A stretch of 64,000 nucleotides of DNA from Daucus carota subsp. sativus (taxonomy: Eukaryota > Streptophyta > Magnoliopsida > Apiales > Apiaceae): contig NC_030383.2 in the NCBI RefSeq assembly GCF_001625215.2, forward strand, positions 3,484,779 to 3,548,778, written 5' to 3'. This document shows, piece after piece, positions 13,501 through 39,537 of the stretch (position 1 is its first letter; each line of letters opens with the position of its first letter). The notes beneath the pieces were generated by a model, which saw only the letters and a list, made by a program, of their open reading frames with translations, was not told the DNA's origin and searched no databases. A program made the translations under genes and the position numbers.

Positions 13501-13725
13501 TTCTAGAGAATTCTAATTTGATATTTATTAAGGGAGGTAGATTTTGTTGTTGATATTTTGAAAAAGGTAGTTCTGAAACTTGGTTCAAATATATCTGAAA
13601 CTAAAAATAAAAATAAGTTTCAAATTCTGATTTGATATTTACTAAAGTAGGTAAATTTTATAGTTGATATTTTGAAAAAGGTAGTTCTGAAACTTACTTG
13701 TAATATATCCGAAACTAAAAAAGGT
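13500..13725. repeat. Two-copy tandem repeat, ~115 bp period
   Basis: TTTGATATTTATTAA, TTGATATTTTGAAAAAGG and AGTTCTGAAACTT recur in order about 115 bp apart (first copy near 13517, second near 13632), with scattered substitutions. Confidence 0.75.
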
Positions 13726-14640
13726 AGTTTTAATTTTTGATATCTTTCATCAAAAATTTCAGAAAATTAGAAAAATAGAACATAGTTATCTGACAGTCGC
13801 CACCTACACGCCCCTCGCTTCTCCTTTATATAAGTATCGATGATTGATTAATTTGTTACTTAGAGTTTTAGATATTATTTTGAAGATTAGAATTTTATAT
13901 TTTAATACTTTTATTTTTAGCTACATTCCTAGTAATTATTCAGCTTGTTATATATTTAGCCAAATGACCTCACTTTGGTTAGATATATTTTTCTCTTTTT
14001 TTTATATTTTTCTTATTTTTTTGACAAACTACTTTTTATTTATCTATTCATCTACTTTATCATCTCTCGCAAACTATACTGATTTTAATAATTAAATATA
14101 TTATTATTATTATTATTCCTCTTATTAATTGATTGTATTGTTTTTAGACAGTGTGGTCTTAAAATTAAAATGTTTTATTTTTCGACATTAAATTTTTATT
14201 ATCTAAACTTTCGTAAAATATTCATATCTTTTGATTATATAATAAATTTTATAAATGAAAGGCGCTCTTAGGATATGGATAACACACTGCAATAAGTTGC
14301 TCATTATTTCTCATATGTCACATAAACAGTTTGCAGTATAGTGTACAATTTTTGTAATCTATTTGATTTTTTTAATATATTGTTAAAATGATTTTATAAA
14401 TCTTTTAAAAAATTATACTTTAAATAATTTTATTGTCACTTTATTTTATTATAATTAATATTTTATCTGTCAGCTAACTTTGTTTGTATAATATATTTTT
14501 TTTGAAATTAGATTATAAAAATAAAATTTCGATTTTTAAATATTGTGAAAATAAAATCAATGAATCTGCATCTCAAATAGTTGAGTAAAGTAGCAATTAG
14601 TATAATATTAAAACTGTGAGTGTTAAAAACTTATTTTTTA
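13726..14640. other. AT-rich intergenic DNA, nothing recognised
   Basis: Very AT-rich, with no domain-bearing frame and no clear terminal repeats. The 83-codon ORF at 13844 is a low-complexity Phe/Ile/Leu/Tyr frame typical of AT-rich noise. Confidence 0.4.
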
Positions 14641-18366: not shown

Positions 18367-19156
18367 ACTTGCTCGTCATATATTGTTGCTTGAATCGTCT
18401 TCTCGGCAAAAGAAAGTTGTTGGACATCCACACACACATTAAACAAACACTTGTCATCAACACCAACGCGAATATAATCATAAAAACAATCTAAACACAA
18501 GATTTCACTATTTTGGTCAAACAAACCATATAAACTAGCCTTAAAAGAATCTAATGAGGTTTTTTTTTTCAAAATATGAGGTGGAAACTCTAATGACAAA
18601 CCACACTAATGACATGAGAAACATCAAAATTATCAGAACGACTTAAAAACCTTCACAAATATCCCCATCATGCATTCTGCTATAAGTATGATTGTCAGAG
18701 TGAATAAAGCACAAATAAATATTTTAGTTATTTTAAGTATGGTATCATTAAGTTAATTTATATGATTAGTTTTTTGTTAATATTATCATTCATTATATAC
18801 AATTGAACATATCATAAATAGTTCATTATTCAAGCGATGGTTTTAATTTCAAAATTTCTCCTCAACCATTAATCTAATTGGCTAATTTATTTATTAAATT
18901 GGATGTATGTTTCTTAGTTTAATTTTTTACGATTTTAAAACCAAAACCGCACCAATTAAAACCGAACCGGGGTTAAAATCAAAATCGAAACCGCCAGTTC
19001 AATTGCGGTTTTGATTTTCAATTTTTAAAACCAAAGACCTTCAGTTTCGGTTTTATCCAAAAACCGAACCGAACCGAACTGAGGTTTGCTCATCACCGGC
19101 AACTGTGCATGTGTGGACTCCGGCATTTCGAAAAAATAATTAAAGCTATAAAACAA
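18367..19156. other. Intergenic DNA with AACCGAAC-rich inverted segment
   Basis: No gene is supported. Around 18935-19085 runs of AAAACCGAACC and GGTTTT occur in both orientations, like the ends of degraded hAT-type MITEs, but no borders or target duplication could be set. Confidence 0.35.
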
Positions 19157-19165
19157 TTATATATT

Positions 19166-19719
19166 GGGTTAATTATCTAGTTGGTCACTGAAGTGGGCTT
19201 AATGTATTAAGTTGGTCACTGAACTGAAAATGATATCAAGATGATCGCTGAAGTCACCATAAATTTCAAACAAGTACCTCGAAATATGAGTTCAAGTAGT
19301 AAAAATATTATTTAAAGAGTTTTACGCATTATTCTTGAATGTTACCACAACCAACTAAAAGGTTATGACTTGTAGTATTTATGATAATATATTTAGATTT
19401 TATCAGGTTTATTTATTATTTATTTTTAATTAAAACAAATAAATAAGTATATAATTAAAAATAAATAATAAATAAACTTGATAAAATCTAAATATATTAT
19501 TATACATACGAGAAGTCATAACCTTTTAGTTGGTTGTGGTAACATTCAAAAATAATGGGTAAAACTCTATAAATAATATTTTTACTACTTGAACTCATAT
19601 TTTGAGATACTTATTTGATATTTATGGTGACTTTAGTGACCATCTTGATACCGTTTTCAGTTCAGTGAATAACTTAATACATTAGGCCCACTTCAGTGAC
19701 TAACTAGATAATTAACCCT
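19166..19719. mobile_element. Long inverted-repeat (foldback) MULE-MITE
   Basis: Almost the whole 554 bp is one inverted repeat. GGGTTAATTATCTAGTTGG is mirrored by CTAACTAGATAATTAACCC, and the arms stay paired through AACCAACTAAAAGGTTATGA and its complement to a short AT-rich loop. TTATATATT occurs directly outside at 19157-19165 and again at 19720-19728, a 9-bp duplication as for Mutator-like elements. It lies 0.5 kb upstream of BiP. Confidence 0.85.
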
Positions 19720-20054
19720 TTATATATTTTCACATATATGTTTAAAGTTAGGATGATATTTAATATATATTTACAATTTATTTTCTATATTATAATAAGA
19801 TATTTAATATTTAATATTATTTTCAAATGAATTTTATATTAAATCTGTTAATGGCTTTGAAGTACCATACTTTTAATATACCAAAAATCATCGTAACAAT
19901 TGTACATCCTGCGAAAGAAGTTAAAAATTTAATTATAAATAGTTTTTTTAGAGAAAGTAACCTTTTTTAATTTACACAAACACTTCTACCACCCAATTTG
20001 CTTGATTAACCCTATAAACCGAATAACTGTCTAACAACAAATAGCTCAAATCTG

Positions 20055-29193: not shown

Positions 29194-30660
29194 TCACTGG
29201 TCTCTGAGTTTCTTCAGCTCTTCAATCAGCACCATCAAATTCTTGTGTGAAGAACCACCTTCTTGTACAGCCTTCTTAGCCACATCCCCAAGCTCTTCAA
29301 TTTTCCTCCTCATCTCCTTCACCGTTTCATCCTCACCGTCCATCAACTTCCTCACAGCCTCTTCTATCTTCTCCCTCCTAACAATTTTCTTACCAGAATC
29401 AACCCATAAGTTCCACTCCTCTGCCCCAACTTCCACTCCAATCCCATACACCTGAGTCAACAGCTTCTCATTATAAAAATGCTCAGCATATAAAGGCCAT
29501 GTCACCATTGGAACTCCACAGCTCACAGCTTCAATCACAGAGTTCCATCCACAATGACTCACAAATCCGCCCACTGACGGATGATTTAAGATGAGCACTT
29601 GCGGCGCCCATCCTCTGACGATCATGCCCCTCTTGGTTTTAATCACATTCTGATAAAAACCAGAGGGTGTCCATTTAATCATGTCATCATCCTTCTCCTC
29701 ATCCTTTCCGAAAACCACCCAAATAAAATCTTTCCCGCATGATTCTAACCCGCAGGCTATTTCCATAAGCTGCAGGTCAGGAAACACACAGGCACTCCCG
29801 AAGCACACATAAATCACCGAATTAAAATTTTTCTCGTTAAGCCAATTGAGACGGTCGTTGTCAGTGACGACTGTCTCATGGCCTCTCTCCATCTTGTTAT
29901 TGCTGTTCGAGTTTAATAACGATGTCGGGCCGACATGGAAGATTTTAATCTTTCCTCCCGTAGCATCTTTGTAGTAATCAGTGTACACAGAGTCGAGCTC
30001 TGAAAAGTTGTTAACAATGATGCCGTAGCTCTTCAATTCAGCCTCTCTCCACTGTTCCATTAGCTGAGTGTACCCGTTTGGGGTTCGTATATAGTCCGGA
30101 AGCTGTGACCGTGTCATTGTGATCTTGTGTGGGAGATTTGGGATGACAAAAAGCTCGTAATCTGATTCAACACTGTGATGTGGTGAATCAGATTTACGAA
30201 CCTCGTGTTTGAGGGTCTGTGCAAACATGCACACCCCTTGAAACACGATCCTTGGAACGCTGATTTTGGCAGCAAAATCAGCGGTCCAAGGAAAAAACAT
30301 ATCAGAAACTATAACATCGGGAGGGTTAGAGATCATGAAACTTTCGAGGTCTGCTTGAAGAAGAGTCATTGCAGCGTAAAGTTTAGAGGCAGTAGGAATG
30401 TCTTTGGCAGATAGAAAGTTTTCGAGGCCATCAGGAAGGCCGACTTGTTTAGCAGGGAAGGGAAATGTTTGGACGCGGAAATTAGGCGAGTCAGTGGTTT
30501 TTTTCAGGAGAGAAGAAGCGTTGTGAGGAGTGGTGAGGATGGTGACATTTTGGGCGGCTGAGGAGAAGAGGTGGCCGATTTCGGAGAGTGGGATCATGTG
30601 GCTGAAGGAGAGGAAGGGGAGCATGTAAATCTCCAGAGGACGAGAGGTGCTCATTGTCAT
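29194..30660 (-). CDS. UDP-glycosyltransferase, UGT73-like, with His at the PSPG end
   Basis: Single-exon gene of 488 residues, normal for family 1 plant UGTs. The start is taken at 30660 (MTMSTSRPLEI); the frame runs 41 codons further upstream but across the TATA box. Catalytic His is H21 in SFSHMIPL and the activating Asp D120 in SDMFFPW. The PSPG box runs from W351 (WAPQVLILNHPSVGG) through HCGWNS to AEH at 394. Most UDP-glucose enzymes end the box with Gln; His there is found in several galactosyltransferases, including the UGT73P2 saponin enzyme, which also shares the MLPFLSFSH-type start. It is cytosolic, and the acceptor is probably a triterpenoid or flavonoid, but this is inference. 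A relic of its 5' end lies at 39415-39537. Confidence 0.94.
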   Translation of the reverse strand: MTMSTSRPLEIYMLPFLSFSHMIPLSEIGHLFSSAAQNVTILTTPHNASSLLKKTTDSPNFRVQTFPFPAKQVGLPDGLENFLSAKDIPTASKLYAAMTLLQADLESFMISNPPDVIVSDMFFPWTADFAAKISVPRIVFQGVCMFAQTLKHEVRKSDSPHHSVESDYELFVIPNLPHKITMTRSQLPDYIRTPNGYTQLMEQWREAELKSYGIIVNNFSELDSVYTDYYKDATGGKIKIFHVGPTSLLNSNSNNKMERGHETVVTDNDRLNWLNEKNFNSVIYVCFGSACVFPDLQLMEIACGLESCGKDFIWVVFGKDEEKDDDMIKWTPSGFYQNVIKTKRGMIVRGWAPQVLILNHPSVGGFVSHCGWNSVIEAVSCGVPMVTWPLYAEHFYNEKLLTQVYGIGVEVGAEEWNLWVDSGKKIVRREKIEEAVRKLMDGEDETVKEMRRKIEELGDVAKKAVQEGGSSHKNLMVLIEELKKLRDQ

Positions 30661-31208: not shown

Positions 31209-31437
31209 AGGTTTCTTGACTTCATGTTTTCTGGAAGTTTTCATTTCTCGGGTGCAAAACTGGGAATAGAGTTAAATACTAATATCTATCCGCGTTTAAA
31301 TTGTTTATTTTGCTAGTCTGTTTTTGAATTTTAAAAGGTTAAATTATAGTTGATATATAATAATTATTGTGATAAAATTTCAAAATTCTGAAAATCATTC
31401 GAAGAAGATTATATATATTTTCCAATAACATAATCTT
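31209..31437. repeat. Duplicated block, copy 1
   Basis: About 210 bp from GTTTCTTGACTTC through GGTGCAAAACTGGGAATAG and ATTCGAAGAAGATTATATAT recurs in the same orientation at 36846-37050, continuing at 39200 after an insertion cluster. No ORF is involved. The rest of 30985-31846 shows nothing recognisable. Confidence 0.88.
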
Positions 31438-31846
31438 TTATTTTTATATTAATATTATAATCAAATACATGCATCTCCTCCCGACCAGAAACAAGATATG
31501 CATATTCTTGCACAGAGTGTGACATCAGATCTAATTAACAAAGTGTTCAAGTACAGAGTGAACTAATTATAAGCAGCAAGAGCCAGTTGCATTGCCATTT
31601 TATGGTTTTTTAAACCATCACCAAGATGATATATTTTAAACAGAAAGCATGAGTACCAACCACACAAGACTAGACATGATAACCATGAAATTCCAAAGGA
31701 GTTATACTTAACAAAATGTTAATATCCAATATGTTGCAGACATTAATGAGCAAATGCAAATCTGATTTAACAATTCCCAACCTCTCACGACTAATGCTTA
31801 TGTAATTTTCATAGTCAAAATTCAAAAGATCCGCTAACAAAAAATC

Positions 31847-34836
31847 TTATCTTTTTCTACCACCACGCTCTCTCAACGAAAGGGAAAGTGTTTCTCCTCC
31901 TGAGACATTGTAATAAGCAAGGGAAAGATTATCCTTGAGAAAGCCAGCCTTTCCACTCAGTTTCTGTTTGTTTGAAGGAAGCTGAATCCCTCCCGCAATT
32001 TTTTCTTTCAAACTGCTAACCGTCTCGGATAAAGATTGTACTCTAATCTCCAGTACCTGCCCTTTCAGGTTTACATCATCAACATTTGGCACAGACACAT
32101 TAATACTTGCCGGTCCCTGAGGTCAAAGAAGAAAAAATCAATCAGAAATGCTACATAGAATGAGAAGTCAGAATTACTGAATCAGAAATGCTACATAGAA
32201 TGAGAAGTCAGAATTACTGAAACAGAGATGCAACATAATAATGAGAGATCAGAATTACTGAAACAAAGGCTATAAAAAAGAAGATCATTGTTCGATTAAA
32301 AAATTAAATACCCACAAACTCCTCAAATTCGAAGTAAAGTTAGAGAAAAGCTTTACACCTGTAAAGCATTTAGAAGACGTTCCCAAGCTGATCCTAATAC
32401 TATTCTGCTCTTGTACTAAGTCATAGTTGTTTGAGTCATAGTGAATTACTCGTTTGTAATCTTAATTAGTGGATCAACTTTTTTTTTTTTTTTTAATGTT
32501 CTTATCACATAGACTGCATCCGGTGATGATGAAAGTTGGTGTTTGCAGCTCAATTTTTAACAGGACTCTTTTAATCCATGACAGTGCTATGGACAAATTG
32601 CAACAAAATTTTGTCCTTGAATTCATAATATTAACAATAGTTAACTTTGGCACCTTATCCGGTATGAGGCAACAAAGAGTTTAGTTCGGAAAGGAAGATG
32701 CAACGTGGATACAAGTTCAAGGGTAAAACTTGCAGTAGAATAATAAAATTAAAAGATACTCCATACCTGGTGTTGAGCCAGGAACTGATCTTCAGGAATG
32801 AGCATAGAATCATCACCGAGTCTTTTCCTCTTTGGCTCAGGCTCCTCCAGAAGTGGAGGCGGTGGGGGAATTCCAAGAGGCATAGGTGGGTGAATTCCAA
32901 GATGCATCCCATGCTGGGGCATGACATTGGGTGCATAAGGTCGAGGAGCTGTTAGAGGTGTATACTGTGATCCTGGTGGGGGTGGCATGGGAATACTGGG
33001 TGGATTCACAGAAATTGACGGAGGCAAAGGAAGAGGTCGATTAACCATGAAAGGCTGCTGTCCGTAGTTGATTTGCAATGGGGGAGGTGGAGCGCAAACT
33101 TGAAGTGGAGGCCGTGGTGGGGCTGGAGCAAGGACCCCAGCCCCCAGAATCAGGGGTCGAGGAATATTAACAGCAGCAAGGTTTGCAGGCGGAGGAAGCG
33201 GCCGTATGGATGGCATACCAGGTCTTGGAGGAGCAGCAGGACCAGGAAGATTGCTGGCCACATCATTTATTTCCTCTCCATTAGGATTTTGAGACATGGC
33301 CTGGGGGGTTGCAGTACGTCCAATACTCCCTGTATGACCATCCCATATGACCTGCTCATATTTTTTCTTTTCAGTCTCTGCCTTGACTGCGTTAGAAACC
33401 TCCTCCTCGGTCGTACCAAATATATCAGGACGGGTCCGTGCAAGTCCCATAATGTTTTTGGATATGTCATCATCCTGGGCAAGGGTGGTATCCCGAATCT
33501 TAGCAAACATTCTCTCTTTCTGCTCCTTGTACTTGGGATCAATGAGAGAGATTCTCATGTGTTCAGACATCTCATTTATCAGAATTAGCTCACCAGTGAT
33601 TGGGGAAACAACGTATTTAGTTGGATCTCGATTTCTCTCCTCAGGCCTCTTCCAGTTCTTCACAATTCTCATTGGTTGATCCTCTTCCATTGGGGTTATT
33701 GTGGCTTCACTTTGCTTACCGCCGCCATTTTCTTTAAGACTAGCAACCTTCATGCCTTGTTCGAAAAGCTGAACCTCTTCTTCATCAATCTCCATTTCTA
33801 CTTCCTTTCCAGGCTCAACAATTAATTCTTCCTCCTCCAAAGTTGACATCTTGCTTCTCCTTATGACTTCCTCAAGTGTCATTGGAGCTGGTAAATCATC
33901 ATCCTCGTTATTGGCAAAGTCTATCATCTCGACAACAACGAAATCATGCCAATCAATAATCCTGGCCCTCTGTTTCCTTTCTTGCCGCACCTTATCCATG
34001 ATATTTTGCCTTGCCTGCTCTTGAGAACGCTCCCACTCCAACCTGTGAAGGCAACGTTCAAGGATGGTCGTCATGCTGTCAACACTGCTCTGCAGTTTAT
34101 CAGTCAAACCCTTCGGAGGCATTAACACTTTCGAATATGCATCTGTTAGAGAAGTAAAAAACTTAAACAGGATGCTATGTTTGGGCTTCATGAAGTTGAA
34201 CTGGGGGTTATTCCCCTCCCTACGTGAGAGTGCTTGCAGAAATGATTTCCCATTCCGAGCTGCAAACTGTGCTGTGAGCTTAATCATATCCAACTCCTCC
34301 CCAGTAATTCCTTCAGGAAGACGAACAGTGTACTGCTCTGCTGCTGGGGGTTCAAGGGGTTTACGAACAGTCCAGAACTGTTCCGAGGGATCAGGCTTTG
34401 CCTCCCCATTGCTGTCATCAGCAGCAGGAGCTGCTGACTCAAGACCAGATGCATCTGAAGTCTGACTACGAGATTCAGATAAACGATGCTGATAATAGGC
34501 ATGATACGGGTCTGAAGATTTTAAGAAATTGAATTTTGGATTGTTGGGAATATCATTCATAATCCTATGTTCGAATTCTTTCCTATCCTTTGCCTCAAAA
34601 GCCACAAAAGTAGCTGTTTTCTCAACAATGGTTCGAATATCCGGAGGTGGATGAATAAGTCCAATAGTTTTTGTGTGAGTGGCAACAGATACAGAAGCCG
34701 AGCTAGCCTGCCTTGCTTCTTTCTCCTCGATATCATCATGAATCTCCCTATCTTGCAATTCAGATGGAGGGAGAGGACCAAGATTCCCATCAATCGGTGG
34801 AGCCGGAAGGGGCAGTATCGGCGTGGAGCCTAACAT
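31847..34836 (-). CDS. SF3A1: Splicing factor 3A subunit 1 (SF3a120)
   Basis: Two exons: 34836-32767 (690 codons) and 32116-31847 (89 codons plus TAA), 779 residues, as expected for plants. Two SURP/SWAP domains lie at about 68-119 (KFNFLKSSDPYHAYYQHRL) and 182-238 (PQFNFMKP), followed by an acidic Glu-rich segment, a region PKYKEQKERMFAKIRDTTLA, a long Pro-rich stretch (about 530-680), the basic EPKRKRLGDDSMLIPEDQFL motif and a C-terminal ubiquitin-like domain ending RERGGRKR. SF3A1 is the scaffold of the SF3a trimer of U2 snRNP, needed for branch-site recognition in pre-mRNA splicing in the nucleus. It is divergently paired with SF3A3, another subunit of the same trimer, 560 bp away. Confidence 0.97.
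32141..32261. repeat. 40-bp tandem repeat in SF3A1 intron
   Basis: Two identical 40-bp units (32141-32180, 32181-32220), each starting ATCAGAAATGCTACATAG and ending AGAATTACTGA, are followed by a diverged third copy, all just upstream of the last-exon acceptor (on the minus strand). Confidence 0.93.
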
Positions 34837-35396
34837 CTTGCCTTGTTCGAGAGAGAGGAGCGGGGGGGGGGGGGGGGGGGGGGGGCGAGAGAGACGAGAG
34901 ATATGTTCTCCTTGTTAATTCAATACGGTGGTTAGAATATATAGACAAGCTGGCCGGATTTTTCTTTTTCGACACGGATTAGGCTTTGTATTCCGATTCC
35001 GCCCAAAATTTGTGTTCTATTTTCTGAATTTGCTATCGACTCAGTAGCCTCTCGATAGATAAATACAAAAATATATCAAAGCTCTATCAAAGTGCATCAA
35101 AAAACAAAAATATATCAAAGTTTTGCCTCATAATCCTATTTGAATTCAGAGAAAAATTTAACAAAGACAATGAATGTTTCCATCACAAACCATATCGAAG
35201 AGGGAAAGAATTGATTCACTCCGAATTGATATCGACTAAGGTTAGAAGTTAGAACTTTGCTTTTGCATCTATATAAGTCACATAATCAATTCTCCAAAAC
35301 CCTAAACTTTTGTCACAAAACCCTCAAATCAAAGAGATAGAGAGACCAGGGAGATATAGAGAGAGAGAGAGAATCATAGAGAGACCAAGGAGAGAG
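34837..35396. promoter_or_regulatory. Shared bidirectional promoter region of SF3A1 and SF3A3
   Basis: The two start codons face away from each other across 560 bp with no other gene. It contains a run of 23 G at about 34862-34885 close to the SF3A1 start and GA-rich leader sequence near the SF3A3 start (35341-35396). No clear TATA box was seen for either gene, which suits housekeeping promoters. Confidence 0.7.
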
Positions 35397-36818
35397 ATGT
35401 CGGCGACTTTACTAGAGGTGACTCGCGCGTATCACGAGCAAGTCGAACGCCTCGAGCGAACAATCGTCGAGGAATATCTCCAAAACGAACCTACTTGTAA
35501 CAGAGACCGTCTTCACCAGAGCCACCGCGTTCGCAGTATGATCGATCAAATCTCCGCCACGACTTACAAACTCATTGAGATTTATCAAGATGACGACAAT
35601 GCCAGGAAAGATGAGATTGCGGCTCTCGAATGCCAGATGGATAACGAACATAACCTGTTTTACGATCTATTGAAAGAGATTCGGGAGTATCATAGGCGTC
35701 ATCGTGTTGTTGATCATGCAACTGATGAAATTGAGCCAATGCTCGAGGTAATTTACTTCAGTGGCGAGGAAGGTTCTGGTCGTTATCTAGATCTGCACCA
35801 ACTTTACAACGATTACATTAATTCTAAATTTGGAGAGCCCGTTGAGTACTCCGCCTACCTTGAAGTGTTTCCACAAGCTCATCGGAAAATACCTCGCAAA
35901 TTGAAGCTTACAAGGCAATACAAGGAGTATCTGAGCAAGCTGCTGGAGTATCTCATAGGTTTCTTTCAACGGACAGAACCCTTGCAAGACCTGGAAACCA
36001 TTTTCTCAAAGGTTAAAACGGAGTTGGAGGAGAACAACAACGGACATGATCCTTCTCGACACACTGCCATTGATCTTGATGACTACAGCACAGTTGAAGA
36101 GCTCATCGAGGCGGGACCTGAGCGGTTAAAGGAGGGTTTGGCAGCACTAGGACTAAAGACTGGTGGTACTATTCTTGAGCGTGCAGAGAGGCTTTTCCTT
36201 ACCAAGAATACACCTCTCAAAAATTTGGATAAAAAGCATTTTCTGAAAGGAGAACAAGAAATTGCCTTGATGGAAGCTAAGATGGAAAAGCTATGCGATC
36301 TGTTACATAAGACAATAGTACGTACAAAAGAAAATGTTGAGAAGAAGCAGGCTTTAACATACCGAGAGATGGAAGTAGAACGATCAGAAGATGATGAGGT
36401 ACAAGCCGACACTGAAAGTGATGACGATGAGCAGAAAATTTATAATAATCCTTTGAAGTTGCCAATGGGTTGGGATGGGAAGCCTATACCATACTGGTTG
36501 TACAAGCTTCATGGTCTGGGTCAGGAGTTTAAATGTGAGATATGTGGGAACCAGAGTTACCGGGGCCGTAGAGCCTATGAGCGTCACTTTAAGGAATGGA
36601 GGCATCAGCACGGAATGCGTTGCCTTGGCATTCCTAATACCAAGAATTTCAATGAAATCACATCGATTGAGGAAGCGAAACAATTATGGGACCGTATACA
36701 AGAGCGTCAAGAAGTGAACAAGTGGCGTCCGGACCTTGAAGAGGAGTATGAAGACCAAGAGGGAAATATCTATAGTAAGAAAACATACACCGATCTGCAG
36801 CGACAGGGGTTGATATAG
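35397..36818 (+). CDS. SF3A3: Splicing factor 3A subunit 3 (SF3a60)
   Basis: Intronless gene of 473 residues. The start is the ATG at 35397 (MSATLLEVTRAYHEQVERLE); the frame can be extended 29 codons only to a TTG. The N-terminal helical region, the EYHRRH and YLDLHQLYNDYINSKF blocks, a SAP-like LAALGLKTGGT segment and an acidic linker precede the conserved C-terminus. The matrin-type C2H2 finger has Cys380, Cys383, His397 and His403. The end KKTYTDLQRQGLI is complete. SF3A3 binds SF3A1 and SF3A2 in U2 snRNP and is required for prespliceosome formation. It shares its 5' flank with SF3A1, so co-expression is likely. Confidence 0.96.
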   Translation: MSATLLEVTRAYHEQVERLERTIVEEYLQNEPTCNRDRLHQSHRVRSMIDQISATTYKLIEIYQDDDNARKDEIAALECQMDNEHNLFYDLLKEIREYHRRHRVVDHATDEIEPMLEVIYFSGEEGSGRYLDLHQLYNDYINSKFGEPVEYSAYLEVFPQAHRKIPRKLKLTRQYKEYLSKLLEYLIGFFQRTEPLQDLETIFSKVKTELEENNNGHDPSRHTAIDLDDYSTVEELIEAGPERLKEGLAALGLKTGGTILERAERLFLTKNTPLKNLDKKHFLKGEQEIALMEAKMEKLCDLLHKTIVRTKENVEKKQALTYREMEVERSEDDEVQADTESDDDEQKIYNNPLKLPMGWDGKPIPYWLYKLHGLGQEFKCEICGNQSYRGRRAYERHFKEWRHQHGMRCLGIPNTKNFNEITSIEEAKQLWDRIQERQEVNKWRPDLEEEYEDQEGNIYSKKTYTDLQRQGLI

Positions 36819-36845
36819 GCTAGCTATCAACACTCGGTTCCTTGC

Positions 36846-37050
36846 AGGTTTCTTGACTTCTTGTTTTCTGCAAGTTCTCATTTCTCGGGTGCAAAACTGG
36901 GAATAGAGTTAAATACTAATATCTATCCGTGTTCAATTGTTTATGTTACTTGTCTGTTTTTGAATTTTAAAAGGTTAAATTGATATAAAAAAATTAAAAA
37001 TATTCTGATAGATTTCAAAAATCTGAAAATAATTCGAAGAAGATTATATA
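36846..37050. repeat. Duplicated block, copy 2 (interrupted)
   Basis: Matches 31209-31418 in the same orientation and lies directly after SF3A3. Homology breaks at a (TA)n run and resumes with TTCTAATAACATA at 39201, so a 2.1 kb cluster was inserted in the (TA)n tract. Confidence 0.85.
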
Positions 37051-37071
37051 TATATATATATATATATATAT

Positions 37072-37481
37072 AGGCAATTGCTCAAATAGAAACCATTAAA
37101 ATAAAAACTAAAATGGAAACCAAGAGAAACTATACCTAAATGACCTCATCCACCCCCTATATGTCATCACCCACCCCCTATATGTCATCACCCACCTAGG
37201 GCTCACCCTCACCCCCACTCAATCCACCCGGGCCCTCTAAGGCCTCGCCAAGGCTCCCCACAGGCCCTGGACAGGCTCCAGACAGTCTTAAAGAGCCAAA
37301 CCTTGGCCCCACCATGGTCCCACTAGGCCCCGACCCGGCCCTATTAGGCCCCACTTAGACCCCGTCTAGGCCCCCTCGGGGTCCATCCCCGGTCCCAAAA
37401 CCCGCATCATTCTACTTAATCGCATTGGTTTTCATTTAGTTTCTATTCTAGTAGTTTCTATTGGAGTAGGACCCTATATAT
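37072..37481. mobile_element. (TA)n-targeted element, member 1
   Basis: The left end GGCAATTGCTCAAATAGAAA and right end (inverse TCCTACTCCAATAGAAAC) match the ends of members 2 and 3. (TA)n lies on both sides. The core 37140-37400 is strikingly C-rich on this strand (CCCC and GGCCCC blocks). Confidence 0.65.
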
Positions 37482-37492
37482 ATATATATACA

Positions 37493-37542
<50 letters not shown>
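37482..37542. repeat. (TA)n(TG)n(TA)n microsatellite
   Basis: Compound dinucleotide repeat separating members 1 and 2 of the (TA)n-targeted elements. Confidence 0.9.
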
Positions 37543-37547
<5 letters not shown>

Positions 37548-38209
37548 TACTCCAATAGAAACCTCCTTATTCTACAAACTAAAAACCAAGCTGAAATATC
37601 ACTAAATCCTAAAGCAAATACCACTAAATTTTTAAACAACCCCAACCCCACCTCCATCTTCACCAACCCCACCTCCACATCCGCCACTGGCACCACCTCC
37701 GTCGTCGCCTCCTCCATAACCACCACCACCTCTATGCCGCCCACCCCCTCCACAACCACCACCTCCATTATTTCTTTAACAACACAATCTCCACCTCCAT
37801 CTTCACCAGCCCCATCTTGGTCGCTGCTTCAACCTCCTTCAGCTCCATTCATACTTCTTTCTCCACCTCGGCTCAACTTCAAAACGTGGCAGAGCAGCCA
37901 CTATTCCGGCAACGCTCCAACCCCCTACTTCAAGCCGCCCAGACCTCCGCTACAATCATCCTTCCTCCATCTCCATCTCCACCACCGTCACCACCATCTG
38001 AATCAAAAACGTGAACAGATCTGGAGATTCTAAGTAGTTTCTAGAACATATCTGGAGATTCTGGCCAGTTTCTGCAAGTTTTCACTAATTCCTGCAACAC
38101 AGATCACTAAATCCTAAATAGAATATCACTAAACTGTACTGAGAATATCACTAACTTGTATTGGTTTCTAGTTTTTATTTTAAGAGTGGTTTCTATTTGA
38201 TCATTAGCC
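37543..38209. mobile_element. (TA)n-targeted element, member 2
   Basis: The left end GTCTTACTCCAATAGAAACC and right end ATTTGATCATTAGCC are surrounded by (TA)n. Subterminal ATCACTAAAT-type motifs recur (about 37598, 38104, 38126, 38145). The core is CCACC/TCACC-rich and gives spurious Pro/Ser-rich frames on both strands (37547-38033) that I do not call genes. Confidence 0.65.
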
Positions 38210-38227
38210 TATATATATATATATATA

Positions 38228-38678
38228 GGCTCATGATCAAATACAAACCACCCTCTAAATGAAAACTAAAAACCACAGCCCAATCCAATCAAATACCAGC
38301 CCAGCCCAATTACTTTAACCTATCCACTTTCTAAACAGTCTGCTAGCGTGTTTTCTAGAAATTAAACCAGTGATATACACGCACGATACATACAACATAA
38401 TTAACACTCACACCAAAACCCCCATCTCTTTCGTGTTAATCGTCTTCTTCTCTCTAAGTCTGCTAATTAAGAGTGTTTCCATGAAGTTCTCAGTAATTAG
38501 TCTGTGTTTTGAAGTCTAATTGAACAAATCACTAATTTTATAAGAGAAATCACTAGTTTTTGGAACACAATCACTATTTCGCAAAGGGAAAATCACTAAT
38601 TTCTGAAGTGCATATCACTAATTTGTACAGCAGAAATCATCTCAACAGGTATATTAAAGCTTTACCAACGTTATAATC

Positions 38679-38726
<48 letters not shown>

Positions 38727-39178
38727 GATCAGGCGAGGGGACGGGAAAGGATGGAGGTGGTGATGGCAGAGAGAGGATGGAGGTGATGATGACGAAGAGT
38801 GGGCGAGGATGTTGATGGAGGGAGGGGCAGAGTTGTTGAAGATGATGGTGAAATCAGGGCGGTAGTGTTGGCCTGGATGTGACAACGGAGGTGGAGATCT
38901 GTGAAGGTGGTGGAAGAGGCGGTGAAGGTGGGGTGGACGTTGTTGGTAGTGATGGTGGAGGCGGAGTGGAGAGATAACGGTCGTGAACGAGGCGGCAGGA
39001 GGTGGCAGATGTAAAGGGAGCAGCAGACATGGAGTTGCCGAGAGTGAAGATAGAGTTTGAGAAGATGGAGGTGGAGGTGGGGTTGTTAAAAGATTTAGTG
39101 ATATTGTGTTTATAATTTAGTGATATTACAGCATGGTTTTTAGTTTGTAGAATAAGAGGGTTTGTAGTGGAGTATCAC
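38228..39178. mobile_element. (TA)n-targeted element, member 3 (inverted relative to member 2)
   Basis: The left end GGCTCATGATCAAATACAAA matches the inverse right end of member 2, and the right end (inverse ATTCTACAAACTAAAAACC) matches the left end of member 2. ATCACTAAT motifs recur five times at 38527-38625. It contains a (GA)n run and a GGTGGAGG-rich core complementary in style to that of member 2. Confidence 0.65.
38682..38723. repeat. (GA)n microsatellite
   Basis: About 21 GA dinucleotides within member 3 of the (TA)n-targeted elements. Confidence 0.95.
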
Positions 39179-39414
39179 TCTATATATATATATATATATA
39201 TTCTAATAACATATTTTTTTTTAATGCTTAATAATTGTATAATATATGTAGCATTTTTGGAATGACAGATCGACACAAAAAATAAATTGAAATAGTGGTT
39301 GGATATAGAGATCGTTCGGCTACTTATTTTTCAGAAATAAAAACTTATTTTTTGAGAATAGTGTATAAAGTTTTGCTCTTTTCTCACATAAGTCCTTATT
39401 CTTAGAAAATTGAA

Positions 39415-39537
39415 ATGGTGACATTTTGGGCGCCTGAGGAGTGAGGAGAAGAGGAGTCCAATTTCGGAGAGTGGGATCATGTGGCTGAAGGAGAGGAAGG
39501 GAGCTTGTATACTTCTAGAGGACGGGAGTTGCTCATT
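39415..39537 (-). pseudogene. UGT 5'-end fragment
   Basis: The stretch GGTGACATTTTGGGC through TCGGAGAGTGGGATCATGTG and GGCTGAAGGAGAGGAAGG matches the N-terminal coding part of the UGT gene (30540-30656) with a 7-base insertion that shifts the frame. Nothing of the rest of the enzyme remains nearby. Confidence 0.85.

Follow-up and report, generated by a model that had tools for sequence, protein, structure and literature searches.

Do two genes that stand head to head, and whose products belong to the same splicing complex, owe their arrangement to a need for balanced expression? The question is raised by a 64,000-nucleotide stretch of the carrot genome (Daucus carota subsp. sativus, contig NC_030383.2, here C3; C3:3484779-3548778; below, the window), in which genes for SF3A1 and SF3A3, two subunits of the SF3a trimer of the U2 small nuclear ribonucleoprotein (snRNP), lie on opposite strands with 560 bp between their start codons. 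An initial annotation had proposed that the two genes share a promoter region and that their pairing could secure a balanced supply of both subunits. Our analysis favors a different reading, which we hold with good confidence: the pair would be a secondary module, in which a duplicated SF3A1 faces a probable retrocopy of SF3A3, which was copied between chromosomes, and of which the C3 copy has stayed intact.

The pair and its relatives in the carrot genome

Reading frames and domain searches agree with the arrangement as first described, with SF3A1 on the minus and SF3A3 on the plus strand and nothing between them. No gene was found inside the 560-bp gap, and stop-to-stop frames of at least 110 aa enter it only as 5' extensions of SF3A1 and SF3A3 themselves. 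The two genes are laid out as follows.

34836-32767, minus strand: SF3A1 copy, exon 1, 690 codons, with two SURP domains, a PRP21-like region and a proline-rich tail
32117..32766, minus strand: SF3A1 intron, 650 bp, GT..AG, at a position equal to that of the intron in the SF3A1 gene on contig C1
32116-31847, minus strand: SF3A1 exon 2, with a ubiquitin-like (Ubl) domain and the stop codon
35397-36818, plus strand: SF3A3 copy, a single exon of 473 codons, probable retrocopy

Both frames are open, over 473 codons in SF3A3 and 779 codons in SF3A1, whose predicted product has 779 aa (one alternative GT-AG solution would give 769 aa). In SF3A1, Pfam profiles matched two SURP stretches (Surp, 116.4 bits in total), PRP21_like_P (154.8 bits) and, on 31850-32119, ubiquitin (38.2 bits); in SF3A3 they matched SF3a60_Prp9_C (191.9 bits), SF3A3 (59.8 bits) and the SDE2-like SDE2_2C (85.1 bits). 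The top PDB matches of the two proteins are the SF3A1 and SF3A3 chains of entry 5z56, which we take to be human, and 220 of 462 aligned residues of the window SF3A3 are identical in the human protein. Domain set and order are the same as in the SF3a trimer of the U2 snRNP in other systems (SF3A1/SF3A3; Prp21/Prp9 in yeast; atSAP114-1a/atSAP61 in Arabidopsis).

Searches of the carrot genome (441 Mb, 11 contigs) placed both genes among relatives. A full-length SF3A1 lies at C1:52009965-52012082, with 87% amino-acid identity to the window copy, the same exon 1 donor and a candidate Ubl exon 2; its exon 1 scores 140.2 bits for Surp and 181.7 bits for PRP21_like_P. Because the homology between the window and C1 takes in exons, parts of the intron and some of the 3' flank, the window SF3A1, which has kept its intron, looks like a duplicate made at the DNA level. 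Upstream, the homology stops at the start codon. The single frame of at least 100 aa in the 4 kb upstream of the C1 gene is co-directional with it, and C1 SF3A1 is therefore not seen head to head.

SF3A3 occurs in the window, as an uninterrupted copy plus a fragment on C8, and as an exon-split gene on C6. The C6 gene, as we derived it, has 12 coding exons separated by 11 GT-AG introns; its frame is open over 509 aa, and its protein scores 191.6, 62.9 and 101.4 bits for the three domains listed above for SF3A3. Since the C6 exons follow one another along the window frame in BLAST alignments, the window SF3A3 lacks all of these introns (0 of 11 present). A comparison of the intergenic region with 1.3 kb of sequence preceding the C6 ATG gave matches of at most 16 bp at E up to 1, with the caveat that unconstrained sequence this old might no longer align. 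Because all 11 introns are lost and no common promoter is detectable, the window SF3A3 is most likely a retrocopy of an intron-bearing SF3A3; the loss is observed directly, and we infer retroposition as its cause.

Plant retrogenes are processed gene copies that gained a promoter. Like them, the window SF3A3 is intronless, has an intron-bearing parent elsewhere, appears not to have carried the parental promoter along, and keeps its frame open. Unlike them, it has as its neighbor a duplicated gene for the partner of its protein, with which it would later have been copied.

Three further observations concern these relatives. SF3A1-like pieces with stops and 55-64% identity at C1:4686517-4686991 (L026, L027) may be the remains of an old, dead copy or may belong to another SURP gene whose introns were read through. 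A weak SF3A3 match on C7 (51%, one stop) falls within the SDE2-like part. In the window, a 575-bp palindromic element at 19155-19729, 90% identical to its own reverse complement, has a copy about 6 kb upstream of C1 SF3A1. Outside plants, no relatives of SF3A3 were confirmed in prokaryote genomes (searched with the whole protein and with its C-terminal 123 aa) or in viral contigs. An Rfam scan of the window at gathering scores gave 0 matches, and the stretch 32143-32265, inside the SF3A1 intron, is among three 40-bp tandem repeats.

Probable copying between C8 and C3

The head-to-head order is found a second time on C8. In what we call C8 copy B, SF3A1 (minus strand) and SF3A3 (plus strand) are nearly whole, with 499 bp between their ATGs; the gaps in SF3A1 include about 115 residues of the proline-rich region, and a 2-bp deletion breaks the SF3A3 frame. 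Copy A is a truncated tandem duplicate of the pair. Because the arrangement recurs there, a misjoin in the assembly is unlikely as its origin, as are chance frames. When 30 kb of C8 were compared with the 64-kb window, only the pair segment and three short stretches matched (the latter at 13571-13850 and 18934-19077, E up to 1e-6), and the UGT gene adjoining the window pair had no match in the 30-kb C8 stretch. With the match so confined, the link between C3 and C8 seems to reflect the copying of a segment rather than the duplication of a chromosome region. On C3, this segment is flanked by direct repeats.

31598..36839, no strand assigned: segment common to the window and C8 (gapped), the pair plus parts of its 3' flanks
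31209..31418, plus strand: direct repeat R, left of the pair, 210 bp
36846..37053, plus strand: direct repeat R', right of the pair, starting 7 bp past the end of the C8 BLAST match

In the genome search, R and R' match in full only each other, which suggests that the pair was copied into C3 as one unit between them; five other genomic places match the last 50 to 65 bases of the repeats. R and R' differ at 23 of 208 aligned sites, and this Kimura two-parameter distance of 0.12 is close to the synonymous divergence (dS) of SF3A3 between C3 and C8 copy B (0.110). For SF3A1 the corresponding dS is 0.045, and the distances to the canonical genes are 0.478 for SF3A3 (C3-C6) and 0.399 for SF3A1 (C3-C1). 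Taken as rough ages, these values suggest that both genes of the pair left their canonical relatives at similar depth and that the split between C3 and C8 is much younger. Homology to C1 past SF3A1 extends further on C8 than on C3.

The copies, the intron loss, the positions, the repeats and the substitution counts are direct observations, and they can be joined into a probable course of events. SF3A1 would first have been duplicated as DNA, with its intron kept. A reverse-transcribed SF3A3 mRNA would then have landed upstream of this duplicate in the opposite direction, producing the head-to-head order. The module would next have been copied to another chromosome. Its most likely source is C8, and it would have entered C3 as one segment of about 5.4 kb between what are now 210-bp direct repeats of the target, which was presumably duplicated on repair to give R and R'. 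Because both frames and both of the TATA-like sites described below are intact, the two C3 genes are probably still transcribed, each perhaps from its own core promoter, and it is probably the canonical pair of loci, C1 and C6, that provides most of the SF3a.

Several observations weigh against this course of events. No poly-A remnant of retroposition was found in 36819-37060 (the longest A run is 7 nt) and no target-site duplication around SF3A3 (the best shared word is 9 bp); at a dS near 0.48, such marks may have eroded. The 179 bp between R and the C8-homologous part (31419-31597) have no other match in the genome. The finding of two full copies of R is the result of a genome DNA search that skips very common words. 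Finally, the lower C3-C8 dS of SF3A1 than of SF3A3 is significant (Fisher P = 0.003), and a single copying event is therefore a poor fit unless conversion or uneven rates intervened.

The repeats could instead be remnants of an event that duplicated the entire pair in tandem on C3. R sits at the place expected for the tail of a left copy since lost, and tandem duplication of the module is seen on C8. However, no trace of SF3A1 or SF3A3 was found in the window to the left of R at E below 1 (tblastn), and R' lies within 7 bp of the end of the C8 match, as a target duplication predicts, though on this side the same picture would result from a tandem duplication ending at that point. On balance we consider tandem duplication an unlikely source of R and R', and retain insertion with duplication of the target as the more probable one.

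Two features of the surroundings may be added. Downstream of R', the stretch 37057-39201 holds TA-rich inverted repeats of the miniature inverted-repeat transposable element (MITE) type, including a 158-nt pair (37521-37678/39044-39201) at 84%. A second UGT fragment at 39415-39537 is 85% identical to 30539-30655 of the UGT to the left of the pair.

Tests of constraint on the two proteins

A secondary pair could be a functional module, or it could be dying, with two pseudogenes in progress whose frames are open through recency alone. The decay of the C8 copies by frameshift, truncation and deletions would fit the latter. Changes since the C3/C8 split were counted by parsimony on each branch and compared with neutrality (neutral nonsynonymous share 0.749, transition weight 2). 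SF3A1 fits neutrality on both branches, with 17 nonsynonymous and 5 synonymous changes on C3 (P = 0.71) and 26 and 8 on C8 copy B (P = 0.69). For SF3A3, the ratio is 24 to 8 on C8 copy B (P = 0.57) and 16 to 15 on C3, where the departure from neutrality has P = 0.004, uncorrected, as one of six branch tests. The two remaining tests, on the canonical genes combined with the shared stems, indicate strong constraint. By these counts, C3 SF3A3 looks to be under amino-acid constraint; C3 SF3A1 keeps its frame but shows no detectable amino-acid constraint since the split.

Beyond the lack of correction, two results limit the case for constraint on C3 SF3A3. The contrast in substitutions between the C3 and C8 copy B branches is not significant (P = 0.07). 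The low ratio of nonsynonymous to synonymous divergence (dN/dS) of C3 SF3A3 against C6 (0.135) is mainly a product of the C6 lineage and the shared stem, because the frameshifted C8 copy B is also low (0.183). The insertions and deletions specific to C3 keep the frame. In SF3A3 all 5 are multiples of three; in SF3A1 10 of 12 are, and the remaining two, of 16 and 2 nt, are separated by three columns and together make 18 nt. All 10 in SF3A1 of C8 copy B are multiples of three as well, though its substitutions look neutral.

The domains through which the two proteins would meet score lower than in the canonical genes. According to PMC4666396, SF3a60 binds SURP2 of SF3a120 via a long amphipathic helix. 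The profile of this SF3A1-binding helix (SF3a60_bindingd, cut-off 22.3) gives 19.2 bits with the whole window protein and 25.1 bits with a 49-aa fragment of it, 40.1 bits with the C6 protein, 57.7 bits with the human protein and 59.7 bits with its fragment. Surp scores are 116.4 bits in the window, 140.2 on C1 and 161.2 in human. In the helix region (human 71-107), the window SF3A3 has lost 5 of the 17 residues that C6 and human share, versus 22 of 219 elsewhere (P = 0.03); identity to human over all aligned sites is about equal in the window protein (216/457) and the C6 protein (236/490). The window SF3A1 shows no excess of changed human-shared residues in its SURP domains, having lost 3 of 29 residues shared by C1 and human in SURP1 and 2 of 26 in SURP2, compared with 5 of 48 in the stretch that follows. 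The helix core of the window SF3A3 is retained, and so is the SURP2 leucine aligned with human L169, which we take to be an important residue. Unlike SF3a in other systems, the window proteins are secondary copies, with helix and SURP scores below those of the canonical genes in their own genome.

The lower interface scores, like the neutral SF3A1 substitutions on both branches, are what two dying genes might show. Against this stand the substitution ratio of C3 SF3A3, with its uncorrected P value, the preservation of frame by C3-specific insertions and deletions in both genes, and the 473 and 779 codons without a stop. We therefore doubt that both genes are pseudogenes in progress, while giving that outcome some weight, and continue to favor a copied module whose C3 version is intact.

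The intergenic region and the question of balance

The sequence between the two genes has the following features.

34837..35396, no strand assigned: divergent intergenic region, 560 bp, GC 38.9%
34938..34943, minus strand: TATA-like site on the SF3A1 side, at a distance of 107 nt from the SF3A1 ATG; C8 copy B has kept it
35116..35217, no strand assigned: central stretch near-unchanged between C3 and C8 copy B, with 101 of 102 aligned sites the same, chosen after the alignment was seen
35270..35275, plus strand: TATA-like site on the SF3A3 side, within CTATATAAG, at a distance of 127 nt from the SF3A3 ATG; C8 copy B lacks it
35297..35304, plus strand: telo-box-like AAACCCTA, close to the expected SF3A3 start; likewise missing from C8 copy B

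The TATATA at 34938..34943 is identical on both strands. The TATA-like sites are 332 bp apart, and 1.2% of shuffled sequences have sites on both sides. Because each lies at a promoter-like distance from one gene, two core promoters appear to fit the 560 bp better than one. By the usual measure of a bidirectional pair, starts less than 1 kb apart, the 560 bp fall within range, counted between ATGs and not between transcription starts. Plant bidirectional promoters have higher GC and fewer TATA boxes, as described in PMC4885881, whereas two TATA-like sites are present here.

Between C3 and C8 copy B, 40 of 400 aligned intergenic sites differ, many of them in purine repeats. The SF3A1-side core and the central stretch together differ at 3 of 216 sites, versus 44 of 637 synonymous sites (P = 0.0009), and the central stretch also appears as a 104-bp BLAST match at 99.0%. 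Because these stretches were picked after the alignment had been seen, special conservation of the promoter is a hint and not a result. In the presumed SF3A1 5' leader, a run of 24 G at 34862-34885 (poly-C in the transcript) corresponds to mixed GA/GGGA repeats on C8; the length of the run may be unstable, or an assembly matter. No folded structure was found in this leader beyond those in shuffled sequences.

It could be argued from these features that the pair has been selected, with a shared promoter that keeps two SF3a subunits in balance. The head-to-head order is kept in two places, C3 and C8, both C3 TATA-like sites are suitably placed at a frequency rare in shuffles, the post hoc comparison of the core and central stretches points the same way, and C3 SF3A3 has its ratio of 16 to 15. 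However, the canonical genes are on separate contigs, SF3A1 of the pair has evolved as if neutral since the split, the interface domains score lower than their canonical counterparts, and two TATA-like sites are more than plant bidirectional promoters would lead one to expect (PMC4885881). On C8, moreover, copy B has retained the SF3A1 side but no longer has the SF3A3-side TATA-like site or an intact SF3A3 frame, so that the genes were not kept together there. We regard selection for balance as quite improbable, and the proposal that the pair serves a balanced supply is not supported. Less probable still, by a small step, is a private second SF3A1-SF3A3 half of SF3a, its helix and SURP domains co-changed, tied to one divergent promoter and serving a variant U2 snRNP used by certain introns or in certain tissues, since the SURP domains show no excess of changed human-shared residues.

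How unusual, then, is the pairing? In Arabidopsis, the main genes are At1g14650 on chromosome 1 and At5g06160 on chromosome 5, with an SF3A1 paralogue, At5g06520, also on chromosome 5 (PMC545797), so the expectation that the Arabidopsis genes are on different chromosomes is correct for the main ones. The head-to-head order in carrot does differ from this, and its recurrence on C8 makes misassembly unlikely, but the canonical carrot genes are themselves separate, on C1 and C6; a lineage-specific pairing is suggested by the one contrast with Arabidopsis. Divergent gene pairs as such are not rare in plants, since 13.3% of Arabidopsis genes belong to bidirectional pairs by a figure quoted in PMC3834115. 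One divergent pair is At3g03150/At3g03160, with 518 bp between frames (PMC4222868). Like plant pairs of this type, the window genes are head to head with ATGs a few hundred bp apart; unlike them, they have two TATA-like sites 332 bp apart, their products belong to one complex, and both are secondary copies. A cluster of splicing genes, atU2A-atCdc5, is also named in PMC545797. Among the papers listed in literature searches on this gene pair, on plant SF3A genes and on plant divergent pairs, no title or abstract opening describes a plant SF3A1/SF3A3 pair.

The pair is odd and testable, yet it does not argue for a coordinated supply of SF3a. What the carrot module does show is a route by which genes can come to look like an operon, through a probable retrocopy beside its partner's duplicate followed by joint copying. 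It is also a warning that co-regulation is not readable from gene order without a check for other copies. Should the module prove to be expressed, it would offer a natural test of whether linked duplicated spliceosomal subunits last longer.

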